A stretch of DNA of 64,000 nt, from contig DATIKU010000021.1 of the NCBI GenBank assembly GCA_035477215.1, positions 1 through 64,000 of the forward strand, given 5' to 3'. Below, piece after piece: positions 18,535 to 30,722 of this stretch (positions are counted from its first letter, which is position 1; every line of letters begins with the position of its first letter). This DNA is from Spirochaetota bacterium. GTDB taxonomy: Bacteria > Spirochaetota > UBA4802 > UBA5368. The notes beneath the pieces were generated by a model that was not told the DNA's origin, searched no databases, and worked only from the letters and a program-made list of their open reading frames with translations. The position numbers and the translations under genes are program-made.

Positions 18535-19488
18535 ATGAAATCCGCGAAGATTGTATCCCCCCGGAAGATCGAGGTAACGGAAGATAACATACCCGCTGTC
18601 GGCGATGATATGGTTCTCGTGCGTTTACAGAAGGCGGCGCTCTGCGGTTCGGACCTCCCTTATTTCGGCAACAGCTTCAATCCCGCAAGCTACCCGTTTC
18701 CGGCGGGATATCCGGGCCACGAGTGCATGGGCGTCGTCGAGGAGTCGAAAAACGGCTTGTATAGGCCGGGTGATCGCGTGATGTATTATCCCCCGCGTCT
18801 GGACGCCTTCAAGGAATATCATGTCACCGGTCCCGGACGGCTGCAGAAACTCCCGGCTCACGGCGATACGAACATGCTCCTGATGACGCAGGTTCTCGGT
18901 GCAGTCTCCCACTGCGTGTTCAGGCTCGACAGCCCGTATAACAAAAACGTGGTGGTCGTTGGCCTCGGGCCGGTCGGCCTGCTTTTCGTATCTCTCATAA
19001 AAAACCTCTCTCCCCGGAGCCTTATCGCCGTCGATATCCTGGATTACCGCCTCGATGCGGCGGGCCGCATGGGGGCCGACCATCTCGTCAATCCGTCGAA
19101 AACGGATGCCGTAAAGGCGATCGGGGAGATCACCTCCGGGACCATGGCCGACATCGTCATCGACGCATACGGGCAGGAAAGCTCCGTCATCAATACCTGT
19201 TTCGAGTTCGCCCGTCACAACGGCCAGATGGCCTTCTTCGGCATCTGTCTTGAGGAGGCGCCGCGGCTCAACTTCAACGAATTCTTCCGCAGGGAACTGC
19301 GGATGGTCGCGTCGGTCGGGCCGGACCTTTCGATCGACTATCCGTTCGCCCTGAGCATGATTGAGAAAAACGCGGTCGATGTTTCCCCGCTCATCACCCA
19401 TGTGATGCCCTTCGATGAAATCCAGAAGGCCTTCGACAGGGCGGTGAGCAGGGAGGACGGCGTCATTAAGATAGTCTTGGAATTTTAA
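18535..19488 (+). CDS. Zinc-type alcohol dehydrogenase family (MDR) protein
   Basis: A 317-residue medium-chain dehydrogenase. The catalytic zinc cysteine region is ALCGSDLPYFG, followed by GHECMGVV. The nucleotide-binding fold has VVVVGLGPVGLL and an Asp after beta-2 (AVDILD), which points to NAD. The four-cysteine structural zinc loop is missing, as in sorbitol or threonine dehydrogenase-like short forms. The substrate is unknown; the following glycosyltransferases suggest sugar metabolism. The start at 18535 has GAGGT upstream; a longer frame from 18466 is less likely. It heads a forward operon. Confidence 0.88.
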   Translation: MKSAKIVSPRKIEVTEDNIPAVGDDMVLVRLQKAALCGSDLPYFGNSFNPASYPFPAGYPGHECMGVVEESKNGLYRPGDRVMYYPPRLDAFKEYHVTGPGRLQKLPAHGDTNMLLMTQVLGAVSHCVFRLDSPYNKNVVVVGLGPVGLLFVSLIKNLSPRSLIAVDILDYRLDAAGRMGADHLVNPSKTDAVKAIGEITSGTMADIVIDAYGQESSVINTCFEFARHNGQMAFFGICLEEAPRLNFNEFFRRELRMVASVGPDLSIDYPFALSMIEKNAVDVSPLITHVMPFDEIQKAFDRAVSREDGVIKIVLEF

Positions 19489-29945: not shown

Positions 29946-29987
29946 GTTGACAACTATACCGATATATACTACTATGATGTGTAGTAT
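29946..29987 (+). promoter_or_regulatory. lexA promoter with overlapping palindrome (candidate SOS operator)
   Basis: TTGACA (29947-29952) and TACTAT (29970-29975) are spaced by 17 bp, a near-consensus promoter. ATACTAC (29966-29972) and GTAGTAT (29981-29987) form a perfect inverted repeat around eight bases and cover the -10 box and start site. A repressor bound there would block transcription, as LexA commonly does to its own gene. A shorter palindrome, GTTGACAAC (29946-29954), covers the -35 box. The leader to lexA is about 130 bases. The remainder of 29805-30113 holds no gene. Confidence 0.65.
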
Positions 29988-30113: not shown

Positions 30114-30722
30114 ATGAAGAAAGACCTCACCGAGAAACAGGAAAATATTTTCGACTTTATAAAAGAGGCGATTCGCGAATCGGGCTTCCCGCCTACCGTG
30201 CGAGAGATAGGCGACCGTTTCGGAATTACGCCCAAGGGCGCCTATGACCACCTCAAGGCAATCGAGAAAAAGGGATTCATCCGGTGCGCGCAAAACAAGT
30301 CCCGAGCGATAGAGCTCCTGACTGACCGGGTAGAGGTGCTTCGAATGGATGCGGTCAATATTCCGCTGGTCGGAAGGATCGCCGCGGGCGCACCGCTTCT
30401 CGCCGAGGAGAACATCGAGGACTATCTCAGCTTCCCGGCCCCGGCCTTCAGCGGCGGTGATTTCTTCGCCCTCAAGGTGAAAGGCGATTCGATGATCGAC
30501 GAGGGTATACACGACGGAGATGTCGCCATAATCAGAAAACAGAACACGGCGCAGAACGGCGATATCGTCGCCGCGCTCATAGAGGACGAGGCCACTCTTA
30601 AAATTTTCAAGAAGGCCGGTGGCAAAATCAGTCTCGTTCCGGCCAACAGTGCCTACCGACCGATCGTTGTGAACGAGGTTGAAGTGCTGGGAAAGCTTGC
30701 CGGTATGTTCAGGAGGTATTAA
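30114..30722 (+). CDS. lexA: LexA SOS repressor
   Basis: A 202-residue LexA. Residues 1-65 are the winged-helix DNA-binding domain (PTVREIGDRFGITPKGAYDH at 27-46). The self-cleavage bond is Ala91-Gly92 (IAAGAP), and the catalytic pair is Ser126 (KGDSMID) and Lys163 (TLKIF). RecA-assisted cleavage after DNA damage relieves repression. The recognition helix (PKGAYDHLKAI) differs from the E. coli form, so the operator should differ too. It is probably self-regulated through the palindrome at 29966-29987. Cytoplasmic. Confidence 0.97.
   Translation: MKKDLTEKQENIFDFIKEAIRESGFPPTVREIGDRFGITPKGAYDHLKAIEKKGFIRCAQNKSRAIELLTDRVEVLRMDAVNIPLVGRIAAGAPLLAEENIEDYLSFPAPAFSGGDFFALKVKGDSMIDEGIHDGDVAIIRKQNTAQNGDIVAALIEDEATLKIFKKAGGKISLVPANSAYRPIVVNEVEVLGKLAGMFRRY

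Follow-up and report, generated by a model that had tools for sequence, protein, structure and literature searches.

The question raised by this locus is which sequence in front of lexA serves as the operator of a deeply branching spirochaete lineage. LexA is known for shifting its binding sequence between lineages, and a motif from such a lineage would provide a reference point for the drift of its specificity, the SOS box of Leptospira having long been unclear. The window analysed here is the whole 64-kb stretch of DNA, from contig C21 of a 3.57-Mb assembly. Among named genomes, uncultured Spirochaetes/Spirochaetota MAGs (ADurb.BinA120, UBA5368, Prado230 and others) stand closest to it, and Leptospiraceae MAGs are more distant. 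The lexA gene is intact (30114–30722, plus strand) and encodes a protein of 202 aa with a winged-helix DNA-binding domain and an S24 autoprotease, as indicated by alignment, by matches to LexA structures in the PDB and by Pfam (LexA_DNA_bind, 5e-22; Peptidase_S24, 1e-33). The cleavage bond Ala91-Gly92 and the residues Ser126 and Lys163 are invariant across 18 aligned LexA sequences, and a cognate LexA with both the DNA-binding domain and the autocleavage residues is present. It is the single LexA/UmuD-type match in a protein search of its own genome, where no UmuD was seen; small UmuD-like S24 proteins are present in relatives.

An earlier note on this DNA had described a near-consensus promoter upstream of lexA with an inverted repeat over its -10 box, and both are found as described. 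The -35 box TTGACA (29947–29952, plus strand) is separated by 17 bp from the -10 box TACTAT (29970–29975, plus strand). The TTGAC is retained in nearly all relatives, and in several families the -10 position of the lexA promoter is an extended -10 of the form TGC-TANNNT. The palindrome, ATACTACTATGATGTGTAGTAT at 29966–29987, consists of two perfectly matched inverted arms of 7 bp around an 8-bp spacer (ATACTAC-N8-GTAGTAT); it encloses TACTAT, and the ATG of lexA at 30114 follows about 126–127 bp downstream. Taken alone it is unremarkable, because inverted repeats of 7 bp with spacers of 0–20 turn up in a quarter of the shuffles of the intergenic region (75/300). A spacer of exactly 8 was found in 5/300 of these shuffles, and the window holds 10 perfect 7-N8-7 repeats. 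By itself the palindrome is weak evidence, and the case rests on the comparison with relatives. The same comparison disposes of the second palindrome that had been offered as an alternative operator: GTTGACAAC is present over the -35 box at 29946 and is not conserved, since relatives read ATTGACAAC and CTTGACATA and keep only the -35 TTGACA there.

Across this order of uncultured Spirochaetota some 28 lexA upstream regions follow the form TTGACA...TGTWTGCTA-N6-TGTWTAG, in which the half-site TGTWTAG is best retained. When sites from lexA, recA, polymerase genes and a small zinc-ribbon gene (gene X, described below) are aligned, they have in common a 9-bp half-site, TGTWTAGTA, which paired in inverted orientation gives the 20-bp dyad TACTAWACA-NN-TGTWTAGTA with the core TACTA-N10-TAGTA. 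The exact 7-mer palindrome is confined to close relatives (it is complete also in L017 and partial in others), its innermost C/G is common to few species only, and the same-genus genome L020 has TAGTA in place of TACTA in the left arm. The pattern TRTWTRSTA-N6-TGTWTAG, derived from lexA promoters and searched for in 44 genomes, matched mainly lexA promoters and gene X, plus one recA, far above its reversed-pattern control, which gave very few matches; for TACTA-N10-TAGTA the reversed control is uninformative, as its words are much more frequent than the originals in the genomes searched. The left half-site at lexA overlaps the -10 box, and promoter constraint contributes to its conservation. 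Conservation upstream of lexA in relatives had been set beforehand as a test, and a dyad or repeat over the lexA promoter is indeed kept across the order. The proposal of a lineage-specific LexA operator thus holds in substance, with the correction that the conserved unit is the larger 20-bp dyad and not the 7-mer.

The lexA promoter carries two such dyads. To score sites, a symmetrised matrix was built from best-match sites at lexA, gene X and recA and from one site at an operon of a DUF72 gene, a Y-family polymerase and DnaE (DUF72-Ypol). Its top score in the window, 19.9 bits, falls on dyad 1 (AACTATACC-GA-TATATACTA, 29952–29971), and the second, 17.2 bits, on dyad 2 (TACTACTAT-GA-TGTGTAGTA, 29967–29986), which contains the core of the palindrome and itself belonged to the training set; the third-best site reaches 11.7 bits. 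Dyad 1 departs from the consensus at 4/18 specified positions and dyad 2 at 5/18. They share TACTA (29967–29971), and their centres are 15 bp apart. The single palindrome of the earlier note is therefore the downstream dyad, and the overlapping upstream one had been missed. At lexA and gene X alike there are three half-sites in the order H1 (inverted)-N2-H2-N6-H3, and the five bases of H2 that read TASTA belong to both dyads. At lexA these are H1, AACTATACC, on the minus strand at 29952–29960, with a mean of 5.55/9 over lexA promoters against a background of about 3.3; H2, TATATACTA, on the plus strand at 29963–29971, which is TGTWTGCTA, or ends in TAGTA in two relatives; and H3, TGTGTAGTA, on the plus strand at 29978–29986, the best conserved, with a mean of 7.65/9 over 20 lexA promoters. 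The shared TASTA alternates between C and G across species because dyad 1 wants TAGTA and dyad 2 TACTA. The 15-bp offset corresponds to about 1.4 helical turns, which could place two dimers on almost opposite sides of the DNA. Two LexA dimers on two overlapping targets have been described at the colicin E8 promoter (PMC4482635); the likeness is in the overlap of targets over one promoter, spacing aside, whereas there the box is that of E. coli and the gene is on a plasmid.

A single dyad at 29967–29986, with the H1 part of dyad 1 being promoter sequence of chance resemblance, is a possible but unlikely alternative to the double operator. Of the two dyads only dyad 2 has a perfect TACTA-N10-TAGTA, a core seldom met in the genome, and H1 overlaps the -35 box and is weak in several families (4–5 of 9). 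Yet the matrix scores dyad 1 above dyad 2, half-site scores peak in the dyad 1 register in both lexA and gene X promoters, and at gene X H1, which is no -35 box there, again exceeds the background in that register. Double dyads with the 15-bp offset also recur elsewhere: the umuDC promoters of one family (L279–L281) have them, as does gene X of other genera.

The box is not restricted to lexA. The exact core TACTA-N10-TAGTA occurs twice in the 3.57-Mb genome, at lexA and before the DUF72/Y-family polymerase/DnaE operon; four sites match it with one mismatch, one at gene X and three inside open reading frames, and weaker versions of the dyad lie upstream of recA, dinB and the small zinc-ribbon gene. 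Three species with differing flanks share an identical DUF72-Ypol box, and variant boxes such as TACTAAATATATGTTTAGTA stand at the same operon in other genera. The operon itself (G000:C58 from about 4582, L134 and L283; L236–L238), with a LexA-type box over its promoter, is a mutagenesis cassette of ImuB/DnaE2-like kind that includes a DUF72 gene. At recA the box adjoins the -35 on its upstream side in about 27/37 genomes, half-site scores peak sharply at 0 and +11, and some recA promoters carry a second box over the -10. Evidence independent of the matrix training comes only from umuDC, dinB and, in other genera, DUF72-Ypol. The best match upstream of umuD in the held-out umuDC operons reached p<=0.02 in 19/20 relatives, among them near-perfect palindromes such as TACTATACATTAGTATAGTA, and 14/24 held-out dinB promoters, that of the own genome included, reached p<=0.05 with a matrix to which the umuDC sites had been added; these p-values refer to mononucleotide shuffles, and related genomes of one family do not count as independent samples. 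At uvrA the motif is at chance level, with 2/24 promoters passing the matrix test. A whole-genome profile search for the dyad gave marginal E-values (0.3–8) because the model is short; most of its matches are SOS genes, and among the 12 distinct sites that it picked out across 8 genomes, 10 belong to gene X, recA or lexA and two (L286 and L295) adjoin no recognised SOS gene. The expectation that the motif would recur at other SOS promoters is thus borne out for recA and the error-prone polymerase genes (dinB, DUF72-Ypol-DnaE and umuDC) and not for uvrA. The core regulon defined by these sites would comprise lexA, recA, dinB, Y-family polymerase/DnaE or umuDC, and gene X, but not uvrA.

These sites also bear on the reading that LexA binds a direct repeat, TGTWTAGTA-N6-TGTWTAGTA, in the manner of the alphaproteobacterial GTTC-N7-GTTC (quoted in PMC8565304). 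Gene X has near-perfect repeats with a 15-bp period, for which the direct correlation is 0.95 against 0.74 for the dyad, and at the lexA sites the values are 0.60 and 0.34. When all sites are pooled the order is reversed (dyad 0.94, direct 0.74), and the recA, umuDC, DUF72-Ypol and dinB sites are inverted and have no direct-repeat partner. The same-direction appearance of the lexA and gene X sites finds its best explanation in an overlap of two dyads, which accounts for the repeat as well as for the C/G alternation in TASTA; the letters differ from the alphaproteobacterial ones, and GTTC-N7-GTTC is absent upstream of the lexA of the window. A pure direct-repeat operator is accordingly improbable and was rejected, as the recA, umuDC and dinB sites are dyads.

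The E. coli SOS box is TACTGTATATATATACAGTA, that is CTGT-N8-ACAG or TACTG-N10-CAGTA, in which CTG...CAG is essential. It is likewise a 20-bp dyad with outer TACT...AGTA and the same geometry, and it overlaps the lexA, recA, umuDC and other promoters, but in the spirochaete box CTG...CAG is replaced by CTA...TAG and the inner AWACA/TGTWT differs. Neither the E. coli-type CTGT-N8-ACAG nor the Gram-positive GAAC-N4-GTTC occurs in the 64-kb window. In Leptospira interrogans, LexA2 regulates its own gene through TTGTA-N10-TACAA and LexA1 targets recA and lexA through TTTGN5CAAA (PMC3789691). Both come from the same phylum. The former has the same 5-N10-5 geometry and lexA self-regulation, but its half-site letters differ, and no copy occurs in the window; the latter has similar targets, but it is shorter with other letters, and it is absent upstream of the lexA of the window. 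The published Leptospira recA box TTTGCTATACAAA has 14 matches in 30 genomes of a related order, none adjoining recA, which makes this comparison uninformative. LexA motifs counted by 2021 numbered 17 (PMC8565304). Eight published ones (E. coli, Gram-positive, two Leptospira, alphaproteobacterial, xanthomonad, Bdellovibrio and Geobacter; some with letters taken from PMC8565304 and PMC3789691) were sought upstream of the lexA of the window and none is present, in agreement with the earlier remark that the box differs from those of E. coli, Bacillus and Leptospira. By its letters, the putative operator is unlike the published SOS boxes checked, and no description of TACTAWACA-NN-TGTWTAGTA as a LexA motif was found in the open full-text literature, subscription papers lying outside that scope. 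Ignavibacteria/Bacteroidetes MAGs (L222, L225, L229 and L230) have another dyad of the same 20-bp geometry, TACCATACAAATGTATGGTA or near variants, upstream of lexA. Leptospiraceae-related MAGs (L307 and L308) have the related dyads TACTTTACATTTGTTAAGTT and TACTTTACTTATGTTTAGTT upstream of recA, and in L205–L207 the related AACTATTAGGTTGTATAGT lies upstream of lexA and runs into the start codon; with these the motif family reaches beyond the order.

It is very improbable that the boxes belong to another regulator which would co-control the DNA-damage genes while LexA uses a different operator. The small UmuD-like S24 proteins of relatives would speak for such a regulator. Against it stand the finding of only one LexA/UmuD-type protein match in the own genome, the presence of the box at lexA itself and at classic LexA targets, and the absence of all eight published motifs upstream of lexA. 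A chance palindrome over an AT-rich promoter, for which the frequency of such repeats among shuffles would speak, is hardly credible, being contradicted by the conservation at lexA and by the held-out umuDC and dinB results.

The site is very probably the operator through which the LexA of this spirochaete lineage regulates its own gene, formed by the dyad TACTAWACA-NN-TGTWTAGTA and doubled at lexA. We infer that LexA dimers recognise the 20-bp dyad and repress from it, and that both dyads at lexA can be occupied simultaneously. The two overlapping lexA dyads span the promoter from the -35 box to beyond the -10 box, and bound LexA would therefore exclude RNA polymerase. DNA damage would lead to RecA-stimulated self-cleavage of LexA at Ala91-Gly92, freeing the promoter, and the same dyad would control recA, dinB, the DUF72-Ypol-DnaE operon or umuDC, and the zinc-ribbon mini-operon. 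With less assurance, though we lean towards it, a previously undescribed LexA sequence in an uncultured Spirochaetota order would place lexA and an unknown zinc-ribbon SOS mini-operon under two interlocked dyads with a common half-site and a 15-bp offset, with two LexA dimers on opposite faces of a 35-bp operator. Such an interlocked double operator offers a testable model of tight lexA repression.

Gene X, a candidate new SOS operon, encodes a zinc-ribbon peptide of 40–60 aa (CPxCG...ESGCFYCRxCGFSxC) under a double LexA-type operator. It is located on the minus strand at about 18,600–18,895 of G000:C49 (L126, L002), with counterparts in relatives (L050–L073, L289, L291 and L292); it is divergent from a gene for a ClpX-like AAA ATPase and is conserved through the order. 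The peptide has no Pfam match above the gathering score. An NrdR box at this site was dropped by eye, as the core spacing is unfit. In the second ORF of the mini-operon (for example in L002, L059, L063 and L066) conservation seems to pass from one of two overlapping frames to the other between the halves. The mean pairwise BLOSUM62 score per column is 1.36 for frame b against 0.21 in the N part, and 1.62 for frame a against 0.42 in the C part. A programmed frameshift was rejected, and overlapping genes are more likely, because there is no conserved slippery heptamer; the ATGs of the two frames lie 10 nt apart in 11/12 loci examined.
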